Positions 858 to 36,272 of a DNA stretch of 64,000 bases are shown piece by piece. The stretch spans positions 1 to 64,000 of the forward strand of contig CAJYNG010000021.1 in the NCBI GenBank assembly GCA_913775725.1. Direction: 5' to 3'. The stretch comes from an uncultured Stenotrophomonas sp. Lineage in GTDB: Bacteria; Pseudomonadota; Gammaproteobacteria; Xanthomonadales; Xanthomonadaceae. The notes beneath the pieces were generated by a model. The model did not search any database. It saw only the letters and a program-made list of their open reading frames with translations, and was not told the DNA's origin. Each line of letters begins with the position of its first letter. The stretch's first letter is position 1. The position numbers and the translations under genes were made by a program.

Positions 858-970
858 GACGGTCTCTGGGTGTGGAGCGGGCGGCGTGGCGCAGGGCGGG
901 GCAGGGGCGATGCCTGCCCTTGGCGGCGCATCGGCTATCCTCTCGGCACTTTTTCGCCGGAGATGCGCCG

Positions 971-1732
971 ATGCGACGCAAGATCGTAGCCGGAAACTGG
1001 AAATTGCATGGCACCCGCCACTTCGCCGCCGACCTGGTACGGGAGATCGTCACCGGGCTGCACGAGGCCGAGCACGACGTGGAGGTTGTGATCCTGCCGC
1101 CGCTGCCCTACCTGGGCGACCTGATCGAGCATTTCGAGGACCGGCTGCTGCGCTTCGGCGCGCAGGACGTCAGCAGCAACGAGAAGGGCGCCTACACCGG
1201 CGAGGTGTCGGCGGCGATGCTGGTGGACGTGGGCGCCGACTATGGCCTGGTCGGGCATTCGGAGCGGCGCCAGTACCACCAGGAGAGCAGCGAGCTGGTC
1301 GCGCGCAAGTTCGCCGCCGCCCTGCACGCCGGGCTGGTCCCGATCCTGTGCGTGGGCGAGACCCTGGAGCAGCGCGAGGCCGGGCGCACCGAGGCGGTCA
1401 TCGCCGCGCAGCTGGCGCCGGTGCTGGATCTGGTCGGCGCCGAGGGCTTCGGCCGCGCGGTGGTGGCCTACGAGCCGGTCTGGGCGATCGGCACCGGCCG
1501 CACCGCCAGCCCGGCGCAGGCCCAGGCGGTGCACGCGTTCATCCGTGGCGAAGTGGCGGCGCGCGATGCTAGAATCGCGGATTCGTTGCCGATCCTGTAT
1601 GGCGGCAGCGTCAAGCCCGACAACGCCGCCGAGCTGTTCGCGCAGCCGGATGTCGCTGGCGGGCTGGTGGGCGGCGCCTCGCTGGTCGCCGCGGAATTCC
1701 TGGCCATCGTGCGAGCGGCGGCCACCTGTTGA
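971..1732 (+). CDS. tpiA: Triose-phosphate isomerase
   Basis: Glycolytic enzyme interconverting dihydroxyacetone phosphate and glyceraldehyde 3-phosphate in the cytoplasm. The 253 aa protein carries the N-terminal AGNWK signature with substrate residues N9 and K11, the electrophile H96 in GHSERR and the catalytic base E168 in AYEPVWAIGTG. The ATG at 971 is chosen because it begins MRRKIVAGNWK, the usual family N-terminus; an upstream in-frame start at 872 would add 33 residues not typical of the family. secG follows after 62 bases, a linkage common in proteobacteria. Confidence 0.97.
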   Translation: MRRKIVAGNWKLHGTRHFAADLVREIVTGLHEAEHDVEVVILPPLPYLGDLIEHFEDRLLRFGAQDVSSNEKGAYTGEVSAAMLVDVGADYGLVGHSERRQYHQESSELVARKFAAALHAGLVPILCVGETLEQREAGRTEAVIAAQLAPVLDLVGAEGFGRAVVAYEPVWAIGTGRTASPAQAQAVHAFIRGEVAARDARIADSLPILYGGSVKPDNAAELFAQPDVAGGLVGGASLVAAEFLAIVRAAATC

Positions 1733-1794
1733 GCGAACGGCCGCCGCTGGCGGCCGTTCGTCCCCCAAGTCGTACTGTCCGGACGGATTTCGAA

Positions 1795-2229
1795 ATGCTG
1801 ATGGTCATCCTCAATGTGGTCTACGTGCTGGTGGCGATCGCGATGATCGCGCTGATCCTGATGCAACGCGGCGCCGGTGCGGCGGCGGGTTCCGGGTTCG
1901 GCGCCGGCGCGTCCGGCACCGTGTTCGGATCGCGCGGCGCGTCCAACTTCCTGTCCAAGTCGACCAAGTGGCTGGCGGTGGTGTTCTTCGCCATCAGCCT
2001 GTTCATGGCCTGGTACGCCGGCCACAGCGCGCGTCCGGCCGATGCCAACCTGGGCGTGATGTCGCAGTCGGCCACCCCGGCGCCGGCTGCGCCGGCCGGC
2101 GAACTGCAGGTCCCGCAGGCGCCGTCGGCCGCCGCCGCGGCTCCGGCTGCCCCCGCCGCCGCCTCGGCCGCCCAGCAGGCGCCGGAAAAAGCGCAAGAAA
2201 AGTCGCCTGCCCCGTCGCAGAAAGACTGA
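1795..2229 (+). CDS. secG: Preprotein translocase subunit SecG
   Basis: Small inner-membrane subunit of the SecYEG channel that assists protein export. The 144 aa protein has two membrane segments (about residues 3-22 and 55-75) joined by the conserved cytoplasmic region GAGASGTVFGSRGASNF. Compared with E. coli SecG (110 aa) it has a long C-terminal tail rich in Ala, Pro and Gln. The start at 1795 begins MLMVILNVVY as expected; in-frame sequence upstream overlaps the tpiA stop and does not look like SecG. tRNA-Leu and the nuo operon follow. Confidence 0.93.
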   Translation: MLMVILNVVYVLVAIAMIALILMQRGAGAAAGSGFGAGASGTVFGSRGASNFLSKSTKWLAVVFFAISLFMAWYAGHSARPADANLGVMSQSATPAPAAPAGELQVPQAPSAAAAAPAAPAAASAAQQAPEKAQEKSPAPSQKD

Positions 2230-2280
2230 AGGCGGTTACAATATGCTGCGCGGCGGGATTGCCGCGCAGGTTTTACGCAA

Positions 2281-2365
2281 GCCCAGGTGGCGGAATTGGT
2301 AGACGCACTACCTTGAGGTGGTAGCGACGCAAGTCGTAGGGGTTCGAGTCCCCTCTTGGGCACCA
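2281..2365 (+). tRNA. tRNA-Leu (GAG)
   Basis: An 85-base class II tRNA with encoded CCA. The acceptor stem GCCCAGG pairs with CTTGGGC, the anticodon stem CTACC/GGTAG encloses loop TTGAGGT giving anticodon GAG, there is a long variable arm, and the T-loop is TTCGAGT. A possible -10 element, TACAAT at 2237-2242, lies about 40 bases upstream without a convincing -35. It sits between secG and nuoA, a conserved position in related genomes. Confidence 0.96.
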
Positions 2366-2476
2366 TTTGTAAGTAAAGCGGGTTCGTCTGGCGCGCACGG
2401 CGCCAGGCAGATTCCCGTCCACTCCCCCATGCCAAAGCGCCTGCAGGCGCAGCGGCAGAGGCAAGAGAGAATCGCT

Positions 2477-2833
2477 GTGCTGGCCGAATATTTGCCGTCT
2501 CTGCTGTTTCTGATCGTTGCCACCGGTATCGGCATTACGCTGATGCTGGTTGGTCGATTCCTCGGTCCCCGCCGCCCCGATCTGGAAAAGCTGTCGCCGT
2601 ACGAGTGCGGCTTCGAGGCCTTCGAAGACGCGCGCATGAAGTTCGACGTGCGCTATTACCTGATCGCGATCCAGTTCATCGTCTTCGACCTGGAAATCAT
2701 CTTCATCGTGCCGTGGACCCAGGTCTTCATGGAGCTGGGTGCCCGTTCGCTCATCACCATGGGCCTGTTCGTGGGCATGCTGTTCCTCGGTTTCATTTAC
2801 GTCTGGAAGAAGGGAGCGCTGGAATGGGAGTGA
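2477..2833 (+). CDS. nuoA: NADH-quinone oxidoreductase subunit A
   Basis: Membrane subunit of respiratory complex I. The 118 aa protein has three predicted transmembrane helices and the conserved loop [20 protein letters not shown] between helices 1 and 2, which lies near the quinone site. The start is GTG at 2477 ([11 protein letters not shown]), preceded by the purine-rich AGAGAG at 2464-2469; this gives the normal family length. It is the first gene of the nuo operon and overlaps nuoB by 10 bases. Confidence 0.95.
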
Positions 2834-3378
2834 TTCAGACTCTCGATGGCCTCATGAACAACCCCACGCCGGAAGGCCGGGTTGATGACATCCTGCGGCC
2901 GGAAGGCGACAACCCGCTGCTGGAAAAGGGCTTCGTCACCACCAGCGTCGATGCACTGCTGAACTGGGCGCGCACCGGCTCGATGTGGCCGATGACCTTC
3001 GGTCTGGCCTGCTGCGCGGTCGAGATGATGCACGCCGGCGCCGCGCGCCTGGACCTTGACCGCTACGGCGTGGTGTTCCGCCCGTCGCCGCGTCAGTCCG
3101 ACGTGATGATCGTGGCCGGCACCCTGGTCAACAAGATGGCCCCGGCGCTGCGCAAGGTCTACGACCAGATGCCGGACCCGAAGTGGGTCATCTCGATGGG
3201 TAGCTGCGCCAACGGTGGCGGCTACTACCACTACTCCTATTCTGTGGTGCGCGGCTGTGATCGCGTGGTGCCGGTGGACGTCTACGTCCCGGGCTGCCCG
3301 CCGACCGCCGAGGCGCTGGTGTACGGGATCCTGCAGCTGCAGAAGAAGATCTGGCGTACACAGACCATCGCCCGCTGA
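2824..3378 (+). CDS. nuoB: NADH-quinone oxidoreductase subunit B
   Basis: Peripheral-arm subunit (PSST homologue) carrying the terminal iron-sulfur cluster N2 that reduces quinone. The 184 aa protein has the tandem cysteines in [11 protein letters not shown], a third in [12 protein letters not shown] and a fourth in [13 protein letters not shown], completing the four-Cys N2 site. The ATG at 2824 lies inside the end of nuoA (10-base overlap), suggesting translational coupling. Confidence 0.97.
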
Positions 3379-3411
3379 CCCCTTCACCTGACAAGAGCGC
3401 GCCAAGCCCCC

Positions 3412-4161
3412 ATGGCAGAGCAAGCATTCTTCATCGACCGACTCTCCGCACGTTTCGCAGGTGCGAAGGTCATCGTGGTCGAACCCCGCGGCGAAGTGAC
3501 GCTGGAAGTGCCTGCCGCCGAGTGGCACGCCACCGCCCTGGCGCTGCGTGACGAGTTTGGTTTCGAGCAGGCCGTGGATCTCTGCGGCGTCGACTACCTC
3601 GGTTATGGCTCCGACGAATGGGACACCGCCGACGTGTCCTCGCAGGGCTTCAGCCGTGGCGTCGAAGGCAAGGCCCAGGGCCGCTTCGCGTGGGGCGAGT
3701 TCCCCACCGAGGAAAACGGCGCCGACGGTGCCCGCCCGCAGCACATGCCCACCCAGCGCTTCGCCGTGGTCGCCCAGCTGCGTTCGTACCAGCACAACCT
3801 GATGATGCACCTGCGCTGCTTCGCTCCTGACGAAGCGCTGCCGGTGGTGTCCTCGCTGACCAGCATCTGGCCGGGCCTGAACTGGTTCGAGCGCGAAGCG
3901 TTCGATCTGTACGGCGTGATCTTCGAAGGCCACCCGGACCTGCGCCGGATCCTGACCGACTACGGTTTCGTCGGCCATCCGTTCCGCAAGGACTTCCCGC
4001 TGATCGGCAATGTCGAAGTCCGCTACGACGAAGAAAAGAAGCGCGTGATCTACGAACCGGTCACCTCGGTGGAGCCGCGCGTCGGCGTGCCGCGCGTGAT
4101 CCGCGACGACGCCCGTCTGCAGACCGCAGAAGGTGAGCGCGCGCAGGAGGCAGTGAAGTGA
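3412..4161 (+). CDS. nuoC: NADH-quinone oxidoreductase subunit C
   Basis: 30-kDa subunit of the complex I peripheral arm, which packs against NuoD. The 249 aa protein carries the family signature [22 protein letters not shown] followed by [16 protein letters not shown] near the C-terminus. It is a separate gene here, unlike the nuoCD fusion of E. coli. Its stop overlaps the nuoD start by 4 bases (4158-4161). Confidence 0.97.
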
Positions 4162-5465
4162 GCCACGTACACCAGGCCGGCGAAGCATTCGCCAGCAACG
4201 CCGCCGAAAGCCGGCAGGAAATCCGCAACTACACCATGAACTTCGGCCCGCAGCATCCGGCCGCGCACGGTGTGCTGCGCCTGATCCTGGAAATGGACGG
4301 CGAAACCATCATGCGCGCCGACCCGCACGTGGGTCTGCTGCACCGTGGTACCGAGAAGCTGGCCGAGTCCAAGCCGTTCAACCAGTCGATCGGCTACATG
4401 GATCGCCTGGATTACGTGTCGATGATGTGCAACGAGCACGCCTACGTGCGCGCGATCGAGACCCTGATGGGGATCGAGGCGCCGGAGCGTGCGCAGTACA
4501 TCCGCACCATGTACGACGAAATCACCCGCATCCTCAACCACCTGATGTGGCTGGGCTCCAACGCGCTCGACCTGGGTGCGATGGCGGTGATGCTGTACGC
4601 CTTCCGCGAGCGCGAAGAGCTGATGGACTGCTATGAAGCGGTCTCCGGCGCGCGCATGCACGCGGCGTACTACCGTCCGGGCGGTGTCTATCGCGACCTG
4701 CCGGACCACATGCCGAAGTACAAGGAATCGCGCTGGCACAAGGGCAAGGCGCTGAAGCAGCTCAATGCTTCGCGCGAAGGCTCGTTGCTGGACTTCCTGG
4801 AGAACTTCACCAACGAATTCCCGGGTCGCGTCGACGAATACGAAACCCTGCTGACCGACAACCGTATCTGGAAGCAGCGTACCGTCGGCATCGGCGTGGT
4901 CACTCCGGAACTGGCCCACCAGTGGGGCATGACCGGCGTGATGCTGCGCGGCTCGGGCATCGCCTGGGACCTGCGCAAGAAGCGTCCGTACGCCAAGTAC
5001 GATGCCGTCGATTTCGACATCCCGCTGGGCAAGGAAGGCGACTGCTACGACCGTTACCTGGTCCGCGTTGCCGAAATGCGCGAATCCAATCGCATCATCA
5101 AGCAGTGCGTGGCGTGGCTGAAGGCCAACCCCGGCCCGGTCATGGTCAAGAACTTCAAGGTCGCTCCGCCCAAGCGCGAGGACATGAAGGACGACATGGA
5201 AGCGCTGATCCACCACTTCAAGCTGTTCAGTGAAGGCTATTGCGTGCCGGCCGGTGAAACCTATGCGGCCGTGGAAGCGCCCAAGGGCGAGTTCGGCTGC
5301 TACCTGGTCTCCGATGGCGCCAACAAGCCCTTCCGCGTGCACCTGCGCGCACCGGGCTTTGCCCACCTGTCCTCGATCGATTCGATCGTGCGCGGCCACA
5401 TGCTGGCCGACGTGGTGGCGATGATCGGTACCTACGACCTGGTGTTCGGCGAGGTTGACCGGTAA
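4158..5465 (+). CDS. nuoD: NADH-quinone oxidoreductase subunit D
   Basis: 49-kDa subunit that forms the quinone-binding cavity with NuoB. The 435 aa protein has the N-terminal [20 protein letters not shown] motif, [12 protein letters not shown], and the C-terminal [20 protein letters not shown]. The start codon is GTG at 4158, overlapping the end of nuoC. Sequence and length are typical of the stand-alone NuoD family. Confidence 0.97.
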
Positions 5466-28774: not shown

Positions 28775-29173
28775 ATCCATCTCGAACGCCTGGACCATCT
28801 GGTCCTCACCGTCGCCGACATCGACCGCAGCTGTGACTTCTACCAGCGCGTGCTCGGCATGCAGGTCGTGCGCTTCGGCGCGGGCCGTACCGCGCTGCAG
28901 TTCGGCCAGCAGAAGATCAATCTGCATCCGGCCAGTGCCCCGCTGCAGCCGCATGCGTTGCGACCCACGCCGGGGAGTGCCGACCTGTGCCTGGTCACGC
29001 GTACGGCGACAGTCGATGTGCTGGCCCACCTGCAGGCGCAGTCCGTTGCGGTGGAGGAGGGGCCGGTCGCACGCACCGGCGCGCTGGGGCCGATCGAATC
29101 GGTGTACTTCCGAGACCCGGATGGCAACCTGATCGAAGTGAGTCGTTACCCGGACCCGGTGGACTTTCGGTAG
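28772..29173 (+). CDS. VOC family (glyoxalase-like) protein
   Basis: A 133 aa vicinal-oxygen-chelate domain protein. It has the paired beta-alpha-beta-beta-beta units with LDHLVLTVADIDRSCDFYQR at the N-terminus and YFRDPDGNLIEVSRY at the C-terminus; H9 and the C-terminal E are likely metal ligands. The family includes glyoxalases, dioxygenases and fosfomycin-resistance enzymes, and the reaction here is unknown. The ATG at 28772 lies within a perfect palindrome and no Shine-Dalgarno is seen. The stop codon TAG lies inside a GTAG-headed repeat. Confidence 0.87.
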   Translation: MIHLERLDHLVLTVADIDRSCDFYQRVLGMQVVRFGAGRTALQFGQQKINLHPASAPLQPHALRPTPGSADLCLVTRTATVDVLAHLQAQSVAVEEGPVARTGALGPIESVYFRDPDGNLIEVSRYPDPVDFR

Positions 29174-31526: not shown

Positions 31527-31555
31527 TTGGGCTTTCCCGTGTGCTGGTTTAAGAT
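31527..31555 (+). promoter_or_regulatory. Candidate thrS operon promoter
   Basis: TTGGGC at 31527-31532 and TAAGAT at 31550-31555 with a 17-base spacer. It would start transcription near 31562, giving a leader of about 195 bases that contains the short Thr-rich reading frame and a terminator. Confidence 0.55.
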
Positions 31556-31614
31556 CATCACACTCCCTGACTGGAACAAGGTGGCCCGCGCCCAGCGCCG
31601 GCCGAGCGTGCGAC

Positions 31615-31641
31615 ATGAGCACTACCACCGCCCACTGTTGA
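31615..31641 (+). CDS. Candidate thrS leader peptide (MSTTTAHC)
   Basis: An 8-codon reading frame, ATG to TGA, encoding M-S-T-T-T-A-H-C: three consecutive Thr codons (ACT ACC ACC). It sits between a candidate promoter and an intrinsic terminator, both upstream of the threonyl-tRNA synthetase gene, with no other plus-strand gene since 29173. This is the layout of ribosome-mediated transcription attenuation. The Shine-Dalgarno is weak (GAG about 10 bases upstream) and no strong antiterminator was found, so the role is inferred. Confidence 0.5.
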
Positions 31642-31666
31642 CCTGCCCCCGAAGGCCCTGTGTTCC

Positions 31667-31692
31667 AGGCGCCCTCGCGGCGCTTTTTTATT
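31667..31692 (+). terminator. Terminator (attenuator) in the thrS leader
   Basis: AGGCGCC at 31667-31673 pairs with GGCGCTT at 31679-31685 (5 G:C pairs plus flanking A-U/G-U) around a CTCGC loop, followed by a six-T run. It lies 25 bases after the Thr-rich leader peptide and 65 before thrS. Since no complete plus-strand gene ends upstream, it can only act on thrS leader transcripts. A small competing hairpin, CCTG (31657-31660) with CAGG (31666-31669), could disturb its left arm. Confidence 0.72.
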
Positions 31693-31756
31693 GCCCGGGC
31701 GCCGCCCCGGGAGCGCTTTCCAGCCCGCCCGGCGGGCCCCGCACGAAGCCACTGCG

Positions 31757-33658
31757 ATGATCAACATTACTCTTCCCGACGGCAGCCGCCGCGAATTCGA
31801 AAACCCTGTCAGCGTCATGCAGGTCGCTCAGTCGATCGGCGCCGGCCTGGCCAAGGCCACCATCGCCGGTGCCGTGGATGGCGTGCTGGTCGATGCCAGC
31901 GACGTCATCGACCACGATGCCAGCCTGCGCATCATCACCGCCAAGGACGAGGAGGGCGTGGAGATCATCCGCCACTCCTGTGCCCACCTGGTCGGCCACG
32001 CCGTCAAGCAGCTGTACCCGGACGTGAAGATGGTGATCGGCCCGGTGATCGCCGAGGGCTTCTACTACGACATCTACTCCGAGCGCCCGTTCACCCCGGA
32101 CGACATGGCGGCGATCGAGAAGCGCATGGGTGAACTGATCGCCCAGGACTACGACGTCATCAAGAAGGTGACGCCGCGCGCCGAAGTGATCGAGATCTTC
32201 AAGGCCCGTGGCGAGGACTACAAGCTGCGCCTGATCGAGGACATGTCCGACGACATCCAGGCGATGGGCATGTACTACCACCAGGAATACGTGGACATGT
32301 GCCGTGGTCCGCACGTGCCGAACACGCGCTTCCTGAAGGCCTTCAAGCTGACCCGCATTTCCGGCGCCTACTGGCGCGGCGATGCACAGAACGAGCAGCT
32401 GCAGCGCATCTACGGCACCGCCTGGGCCGACAAGAAGCAGCTCGAGGCGTACATCAAACGCATCGAGGAAGCCGAGATGCGCGACCACCGCCGCATCGGC
32501 AAGCAGCAGGACCTGTTCCACCTGCAGGAAGAGGCGCCGGGCCTGGTGTTCTGGCACCCGAAGGGCTGGGCGTTGTGGCAGGTGGTCGAGCAGTACATGC
32601 GCAAGGTCTACCGCAGCAGCGGCTACGGCGAAGTGCGCTGCCCGCAGATCCTGGACGTGAGCCTGTGGAAGAAGTCCGGCCATTGGGACAACTACCAGGA
32701 CAACATGTTCTTCACCGAATCGGAGAAGCGCACCTACGCGGTCAAGCCGATGAACTGCCCGGGCCACATCCAGGTGTTCAACCAGGGCCTGCACAGCTAC
32801 CGCGACCTGCCGATCCGCTACGGTGAATTCGGTTCCTGCCATCGCAACGAGCCGTCCGGTGCGCTGCACGGCATTCTGCGCGTGCGTGGTTTCACCCAGG
32901 ACGACGGCCACGTGTTCTGCACCGAGAGCCAGATCGAATCGGAAGTGACCGCGTTCCACCAGCAGGCGCTGGCGGTCTACCAGCACTTCGGTTTCGATGA
33001 GATCCAGATCAAGATCGCGCTGCGTCCGGAATCGCGCCTTGGCGACGACGCCACCTGGGACAAGGCCGAGGGCGCACTGCGTTCGGCGCTGTCCGCCTGT
33101 GGCGTGGAATGGCAGGAGCTGCCGGGCGAGGGCGCCTTCTACGGCCCGAAGATCGAGTACCACCTGAAGGACGCCATCGGCCGTACCTGGCAGCTGGGCA
33201 CCATGCAGGTCGACTTCATGATGCCGGGCCGTCTGGGCGCCGAGTACGTGGACGAGAACAGCCAGAAGAAGCACCCGGTCATGCTGCACCGCGCCATCGT
33301 CGGCTCGATGGAGCGCTTCCTGGGCATCCTGATCGAACACCATGCCGGCCAGTTCCCGGCCTGGCTGGCGCCGACCCAGGTGGTGGTGGCCAACATCACC
33401 GACGCCCAGGCCGACTACGTCTCGGGCGTGACCAAAACCCTTGCGGAGCAAGGCTTCCGCGTCAGCTCGGATTTGCGTAACGAGAAGATCGGCTATAAAA
33501 TCCGCGAGCATACGTTGCAGCGCGTGCCTTACCTGCTGGTCATTGGTGACCGCGAGAAGGAAAATGGGGCTGTGGCGGTGCGTACGCGTTCTGGCGAAGA
33601 CCTGGGCAGCATGAGCCTGCAGGCCTTCATCGAGCGGCTCCAGGCCGAGGGCGCGTAA
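31757..33658 (+). CDS. thrS: Threonine--tRNA ligase
   Basis: Charges tRNA-Thr. The 633 aa protein has an N-terminal TGS domain (1-61), the editing domain with [10 protein letters not shown], and the class II catalytic core. C334 in NCPGHIQVF matches the E. coli zinc ligand by both motif and numbering; class II motif 2 is [20 protein letters not shown] split in the usual way, and the anticodon-binding domain is C-terminal. The ATG at 31757 gives [12 protein letters not shown]. It heads the infC-rpmI-rplT-pheST-ihfA cluster and is preceded by a probable attenuator. Confidence 0.97.
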
Positions 33659-33721
33659 GCAAAGGTCCGGTCCGGGGGCAGAGGCACCCGGACCGGTTCG
33701 ATACCCTTGGGAGAACGTAAT

Positions 33722-34249
33722 ATCAGCACCCCTGACAACAAACAGAACCGCAAGAATCAGGAAATCCGTGTGCCGCGCGTCCGCGTGATCGGCAGTGACG
33801 GAGAAATGATCGGCGTGTTGTCGCGCGACGAAGCGCTGTCCATGGCCGAAGATGAAGGCCTGGATCTGGTCGAAATCCAGCCGCAGGCCGATCCGCCGGT
33901 CTGCAAGATCATGGACTTCGGCAAGTTCAAGTTCGAAGCGCAGAAGAAGGCCAGCGAGGCCAAGAAGAAGACCAAGCAGGTCGAGATCAAGGAAGTGAAG
34001 TTCCGTCCGGTCACGGACGAGGGCGACTACCAGATCAAGCTGCGCAAGATGCGCGGGTTCCTCGAAGAAGGCGACAAGATCAAGGTCAACATCCGTTTCC
34101 GTGGCCGTGAAATGAGCCACCAGGAACTGGGTCGTGAAATGGCCAACCGGATCGAGACCGATCTGGGCGAGGACATCGTCATTGAATCCCGTCCGCGCCT
34201 GGAAGGGCGTCAGATGGTCATGATGATCGCGCCGAAGAAGAAGACCTGA
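33722..34249 (+). CDS. infC: Translation initiation factor IF-3, AUC start codon
   Basis: Prevents premature 50S joining and checks start-codon choice on the 30S subunit. The 175 aa protein has the IF-3 N domain with [19 protein letters not shown] and the C domain with [20 protein letters not shown]. No ATG, GTG or TTG lies at the family N-terminus; the codon ATC at 33722 is 8 bases after the Shine-Dalgarno GGGAG (33709-33713) and begins (M)[20 protein letters not shown] rare start matches the IF-3 autoregulation known in E. coli, where infC starts with AUU. The alternative TTG at 33707 overlaps the Shine-Dalgarno. Confidence 0.93.

Positions 34250-35084: not shown

Positions 35085-36272
<1,188 letters not shown>

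Follow-up and report, generated by a model that had tools for sequence, protein, structure and literature searches.

A probable leader-peptide attenuator with threonine codons upstream of thrS in Stenotrophomonas and its relatives

In E. coli, the threonyl-tRNA synthetase gene thrS serves as the textbook example of a gene whose product, the synthetase, represses its own translation. In a 64,000-nucleotide stretch of DNA from an uncultured Stenotrophomonas sp. (contig CAJYNG010000021.1 of assembly GCA_913775725.1, hereafter the window), the first-pass annotation proposed that thrS is controlled by ribosome stalling at the Thr codons of a short leader frame followed by an intrinsic terminator. 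How is thrS controlled at this locus? The comparative and computational analysis presented here supports stalling control through a conserved frame, its Thr codons, a terminator and a computed switch, and we assign a probability of roughly 85% to ribosome-mediated transcription attenuation of thrS that would sense Thr-tRNA.

Layout of the thrS leader

The features of the locus are collected in Table 1. Read 5' to 3', AGGTGG, the hairpin P1, the linker GAGCGTGCGAC, an 8-codon frame and the terminator follow one another before thrS. The ORF list opens thrS at a TTG 5' of the ATG adopted here, and it also includes the plus-strand ORF that ends at 29173. Among the best 80 of 528 named matches, the nearest named relatives of the window's ThrS are S. 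maltophilia and its allies. The candidate promoter placed 5' of the leader by the first-pass annotation was not borne out, a strict promoter scan returning 0 sites, and the possible promoter of Table 1 was picked out by eye. Several Stenotrophomonas leaders carry the stretch TTTAAGAT as well, 5' of their Shine-Dalgarno. At the gathering threshold, Rfam models matched tRNAs alone in the window, and between 31500 and 31800 the Rfam and T-box models gave one chance-level match (E 1.6, opposite strand) and no T-box match.

Table 1. Positions of the leader elements and of thrS in the window
Feature	Positions	Strand	Remarks
Possible promoter TTGGGC-17-TAAGAT	31527..31555	+	by eye; inferred
Strand 1: CTGGAACA and Shine-Dalgarno AGGTGG (31579-31584)	31571..31584	+	pairing, permutation
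Hairpin P1, between Shine-Dalgarno and ATG	31583..31603	+	GGCC, C.C mismatch, GCGC, loop CCA
Linker GAGCGTGCGAC, 11 nt, consensus -AGNGTGYGAC-	31604..31614	+	conserved
Leader MSTTTAHC*	31615..31641	+	stop TGA 31639-31641; conserved frame
Strand 2	31650..31668	+	partner is strand 1 or strand 3
Antiterminator fold, first half	31650..31677	+	CGA 31650-31652, GGC 31654-31656, CCTG 31657-31660
Antiterminator fold, second half	31650..31677	+	CAGG 31666-31669 (with CCTG), GCC 31671-31673, TCG 31675-31677
Intrinsic terminator, strands 3 and 4, AGGCGCC-CTCGC-GGCGCTTTTTT	31667..31690	+	T-run 31684-31689
thrS, threonyl-tRNA synthetase, controlled gene	31757..33658	+	ATG 31757 taken as start

The frame with three consecutive Thr codons that had been described is present (ATG AGC ACT ACC ACC GCC CAC TGT TGA), and a short ORF carrying codons of the cognate amino acid, a hallmark of ribosome-mediated leader-peptide attenuators, is thus found here. 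The first of its Thr codons, ACT, is rare in the window, where 37 long ORFs use it for 3.9% of their Thr (25 of 645 codons). The intrinsic terminator, placed by the same annotation 25 bases past the leader stop, was confirmed as AGGCGCC-CTCGC-GGCGCTT from 31667 with its T-run ending at 31689; a terminator scan reported the hairpin at 31667-31685 and, in all, 2 sites in the 2-kb region scanned on both strands, against 0.5 +/- 0.8 in shuffles. An intrinsic terminator between leader ORF and gene, another attenuator hallmark, is present, most named Xanthomonas loci excepted.

The Shine-Dalgarno had been judged poor, a view that does not hold since AGGTGG is displaced and sits 5' of a hairpin. GGTG[AGC] precedes the ATG in 166 of the 170 distinct leaders of the family, and once P1 is looped out, 11 nt separate the Shine-Dalgarno from the ATG. 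A Shine-Dalgarno bridged by a hairpin has a precedent in phage T4. Across 77 representatives P1 is paired in 98.3% of the cells, both sides have changed in five of its seven pairs, and for every one of five measures 0 of 500 shuffles came up to the observed value; with 53 of 71 leaders the result was similar (0 or 1 of 500 shuffles). In two leaders (L146 and L165) AGGAG replaces AGGTG and is followed by another hairpin-like stretch, as seen by eye, which suggests that it is the Shine-Dalgarno function that has been kept. A further odd leader, L179, lies directly 3' of what looks by eye like a tRNA, and the portion with AGGTG and P1 is no longer recognisable in it.

The linker between P1 and the frame is nearly invariant across two families; its positions -6 to +2 (TG[CT]GACATG) were fixed by the core search itself, and position -7 is G in 170/170 leaders of family 1, the window's own family, and in 31/31 of family 2. 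Two candidate roles were considered for this stretch, a polymerase pause, which is kept as an idea, and a start-codon hairpin, which was not adopted. A pause site for RNA polymerase has the consensus G-10Y-1G+1, according to a published account (PMC9291695); in the linker Y-1 and G+1 are present, both fixed by the core search, and G-10 is absent. A hairpin CGTG-CGA-CATG that would sequester the ATG was returned by RNAalifold, with three of its four pairs invariant and the fourth showing a one-sided change or being broken.

The neighbouring genes offered two observations of their own. In the next gene, infC, the start (region 33700-33760) seems to be a non-standard ATC at about 33722, after GGGAG, and the ORF list gives TTG; unusual start codons are frequent in IF3 genes. 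The gap between rplT and pheS holds an intrinsic-terminator-like sequence at 35139-35175 (GGGGAAGG...CCTTCCCC-ATTCTTTTTT), and no Phe leader frame was seen in it by eye. In E. coli, pheM is located between rplT and pheS.

Conservation of the leader in two families

ThrS was found in 192 of the 198 genomes of the family that were searched. The 190 loci of family 1 comprise 30 from the ThrS search, 80 named ones (the best 80 of 528) and 80 further regions, and a single genome may occur twice among them. Two sequence classes of ThrS can be told apart in this family, one with 77-100% and the other with 51-55% identity across 198 aa; they contributed 65 and 15 of the further regions respectively, and a genus sometimes has both, as g42 does (G042 and G147). 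The core TG[CT]GACATG is present in 187 of the 190 thrS loci examined, including the best 80 of 528 named ones, and absent from L163, L181 and L189; the core-bearing loci hold 170 distinct leaders. In L161 and L184 the two ThrS classes stand under a nearly identical leader, which may point to replacement of thrS beneath the native leader. One locus, L067, comes from a record titled Bacillus subtilis, yet its ThrS shares 96% identity with that of the window; the assembly is probably mislabelled or contaminated.

In the 170 distinct leaders the frame has 8 codons in 150, 6 in 12, 7 in 7 and 16 in one. Codon 3 is Thr in 168 of them (ACT in 167), codon 4 in 158 and codon 5 in 99, so that at least two Thr codons occur in 159 leaders, one in 10 and none in L150, and codon 2 is variable. 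An in-frame stop at codons 6-10 was found in 107 of 108 leaders, as compared with 8.7% of shuffled ones, and the nucleotides round the ATG are very highly conserved, the wobble base of codon 3 included. Within 80 nt past codon 9 a terminator was detected in 63 of the 77 family-1 representatives (10.3% when shuffled).

Furthermore, a covariance model built from 53 leaders was searched against the order and the class under strict filters. Among 250 genomes of the order, 103 matched at E <= 1.7e-6; 54 of these belong to the window's family, 48 to a second one and one (G609) to a third. A further 8 genomes gave weak matches alone, and eight weak hits fetched from the order (L270-L277) are without the core. 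All 32 loci fetched from outside the own family (31 of the 48, and G609) place the match just upstream of thrS. In G609 the core carries a one-base insertion; the leader reads MSTTSAA*, and a hairpin resembling a terminator is present. Among 369 genomes of the class no strong match was found outside the order, strict filters being liable to miss weak homologues, and 13 genomes outside it matched at E <= 0.01, the best at 2.1e-4.

The 31 leaders of family 2 repeat the arrangement. The frame has 8 codons in 28/31, Thr stands at codon 3 in 31/31 and at codon 4 in 25/31, in the latter case as ACG (11), ACC (10), ACT (2) or ACA (2). A terminator lies within 80 nt past codon 9 in 28/31 leaders (9.4% when shuffled) and 47-81 nt 3' of the ATG in 29/31. 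Its sequence has diverged (e.g. AGGGCGC-CTG-GCGCCCT or GAAAGGGCG-TCA-TGCCCTTTT) and its arms covary (0 of 10,000 permutations). Leader alignments had been named beforehand as the place where the proposal could fail, and in them both families keep the short frame and its Thr codons. Conservation of the terminator stood for most leaders and did not extend to Xanthomonas, which is mostly without it; the changes seen across the alignments are synonymous and compensatory.

Alternative pairings and the computed effect of ribosome position

The free leader of the window folds with 31571-31581 paired on 31657-31668 and with the terminator formed. When only the RNA past a ribosome that occupies the Thr codons is folded, strand 2 takes the terminator's 5' arm as its partner (-19.5 kcal/mol); for a ribosome at the stop, the RNA past it folds into the terminator (-10.7). 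The absence of a strong antiterminator, taken earlier as a weak point of the proposal, is thus not borne out for the window RNA, which has the predicted antiterminator fold of Table 1. In ensemble folding the terminator probability of this leader is 0.00 with the ribosome stalled, 0.73 with the ribosome at the stop and 0.84 without ribosome.

The same calculation was extended to both families, and a switch that depends on ribosome position was computed in each. The mean terminator probabilities without ribosome, on the Thr codons and at the stop are 0.52, 0.37 and 0.81 for 63 family-1 leaders, against 0.58, 0.64 and 0.74 with shuffled spacers, and 0.89, 0.60 and 0.92 for 29 family-2 leaders, against 0.74, 0.81 and 0.87. 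The difference between stop and Thr codons amounts to 0.446 in family 1 (shuffled 0.103, sd 0.049) and 0.312 in family 2 (shuffled 0.063, sd 0.055), above all 20 rounds in both cases. A switch of at least 0.3 is seen in only 35/63 and 12/29 leaders respectively, and the family-1 probability without ribosome is not above that of the shuffles. In both families (61 and 29 leaders) the terminator probability steps up as the beginning of the free RNA is shifted, from 31 to 37 nt past the A of the ATG. This corresponds to the edge of a ribosome with the stop of the 8-codon frame in its A site, if the footprint is assumed to reach ~15 nt beyond the P site's first base.

The pairing between strands 1 and 2 was assessed by comparing true with re-paired partners. 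In family 2, 0 of 10,000 permutations reached the observed value, and 5 of 10,000 did so for 14 less redundant leaders; in family 1 the counts were 60 of 5,000 for all representatives and 56 of 5,000 for 35 less redundant leaders, and 400, 258, 225, 587 and 23 of 5,000 under the first definitions. Control pairings gave 4,796 and 407 of 10,000 and 1,051 of 5,000; the 407 came from the family-2 control, a region further upstream paired with strand 2, hence some background exists. Judged from the aligned leaders, the pairing is clear in family 2 and weaker in family 1.

The tests on strands 2 and 3 turned out differently. The local antiterminator hairpin of 63 leaders was not above shuffles (mean z +0.21), and in the permutation the true partners were worse than the permuted ones, with a cut judged badly chosen. 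After the cut was changed, the hairpin score was below shuffles in 100/100 rounds, and one of eight permutation settings gave 39 of 5,000, the others ranging from 906 to 4,996, which we do not count as support; family 2 gave 7,888 of 10,000. For an exclusive antiterminator freed by a stalled ribosome, the ensemble switch is positive and the local hairpin and permutation tests are negative.

From these results we infer the following course of events. RNA polymerase would produce a leader of ~195 nt, counted from a presumed start. A ribosome would load at AGGTGG, drawn near the ATG by P1, and translate M-S-T-T-T-A-H-C. When Thr-tRNA is scarce, it would stall at codons 3-5, at the rare ACT first. 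The strand past the stop could then pair with the terminator's 5' arm, and transcription would run on into thrS. When Thr-tRNA is plentiful, the ribosome would reach the stop codon and cover strand 2, so that the terminator would form in the cell. With no ribosome, in the species of the window, strand 2 would pair with the Shine-Dalgarno region and the terminator would form as well.

A wider proposal is tentative, and we give it rather less than even odds: the leaders may belong to an attenuator class of the order in which the ribosome would sense its amino acid before leaving the start. P1 would bridge the distant Shine-Dalgarno to the ATG, and Thr at codons 3-4 would cause the stalled ribosome to keep hold of the Shine-Dalgarno, which would be the strand otherwise freeing the terminator. 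The linker would be a further contact site, for a paused RNA polymerase, the ribosome or ThrRS.

Other readings and known systems

Among the named loci, all within the best 80 of 528, the core is kept in 24/24 of those of Xanthomonas (L074-L109), and a terminator was found in 7/24 of them under the lenient rule and in 1/24 under the strict one. The respective counts are 8/8 and 6/8 for Pseudoxanthomonas and 48/48 and 46/48 for the other named loci. In 14 terminator-less leaders the pairing of strands 1 and 2 seems to be kept (183 and 24 of 5,000 under two definitions). The switch may be weaker in Xanthomonas, or depend on Rho there. Taken for all leaders, the kept core and pairing of Xanthomonas would fit a leader peptide that acts mainly via translation or Rho-dependent termination, the terminator being an accessory lost in most of that genus. 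We consider this very improbable, given that elsewhere the terminator is kept in two families, covaries in family 2 and is in step with the ribosome-position switch.

According to another reading, ThrRS binds the leader and represses thrS through a mimic of the tRNA-Thr anticodon, NGU in the linker with N variable, and the frame is secondary. The E. coli precedent, as described in a review (PMC9976931), and the fixed G and T after a variable base of the linker, the T being fixed by the search itself, are consistent with such an operator, as are anticodon-arm-like hairpins slightly above shuffles. However, these hairpins occur in only 6 of 107 leaders when T33 is demanded (2.7% when shuffled) and in only 20 of 107 without that demand (13.1%), and none is present in the leader of the window (L001). 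Moreover, the two ThrS classes differ greatly in sequence and yet share the leader, with the core in 13 of 15 fetched loci of the second class, and an operator would leave the conserved frame, its stop and the terminator unexplained, which makes this reading very improbable to us. Finally, a terminator that serves a separate small RNA or stops read-through from upstream, with the Thr frame as a by-product of a structured RNA, could account for the very high nucleotide conservation round the ATG, the codon-3 wobble base included, but is hardly credible in view of the synonymous changes at codon 4, the free codon 2, stops that shift yet stay near and in frame, the position directly 5' of thrS in the fetched loci and the lack of an Rfam family.

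Ribosome-mediated attenuation, which we prefer, has known counterparts. In E. coli a leader peptide with cognate codons and a terminator, pheM before pheST, control an aminoacyl-tRNA synthetase gene. The thrS leader resembles this system in placing a short frame with cognate codons and a terminator before a synthetase gene, and differs from it in the gene, in the amino acid, Thr, with mostly 2-3 Thr among 8 codons, and in the conserved hairpin between Shine-Dalgarno and start codon. In the trpL, hisL, thrL and leuL attenuators, mutually exclusive pairings are read by the position of the ribosome. The thrS leader would share this principle, as computed here, although thrS is not a biosynthetic operon and the Shine-Dalgarno region itself serves as strand 1. 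In Gram-positive bacteria the T-box of thrS senses the charging of tRNA-Thr via a terminator and an antiterminator. No T-box match was found here, and the proposed reader is the ribosome.

In E. coli, ThrRS binds a tRNA-like leader of thrS, as stated in a review (PMC9976931). The same gene is controlled from its 5' leader in both cases, whereas no conserved anticodon-arm mimic was found among 107 leaders; the contrast with E. coli drawn at the outset follows that review's description of the E. coli system. In the openly licensed papers searched, we recognised no description of a leader-peptide attenuator of thrS; the subscription literature lay outside the search and may hold an earlier mention. 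PMC7815308 gives pheM as an annotated leader peptide, and in the accessible text of the survey by Naville and Gautheret (PMC2965389) threonyl-tRNA synthetase is mentioned a single time, for E. coli. The principle at work is a known one; what appears new is the gene, the element and the architecture of the start site. With its separated Shine-Dalgarno and covarying hairpin, the leader lends itself to direct tests of a regulatory role for start-site geometry. If the proposed control holds for much of the order, the leader deserves a curated RNA family, and thrS would have at least three unrelated sensing solutions, namely the protein operator, the T-box and the leader peptide.
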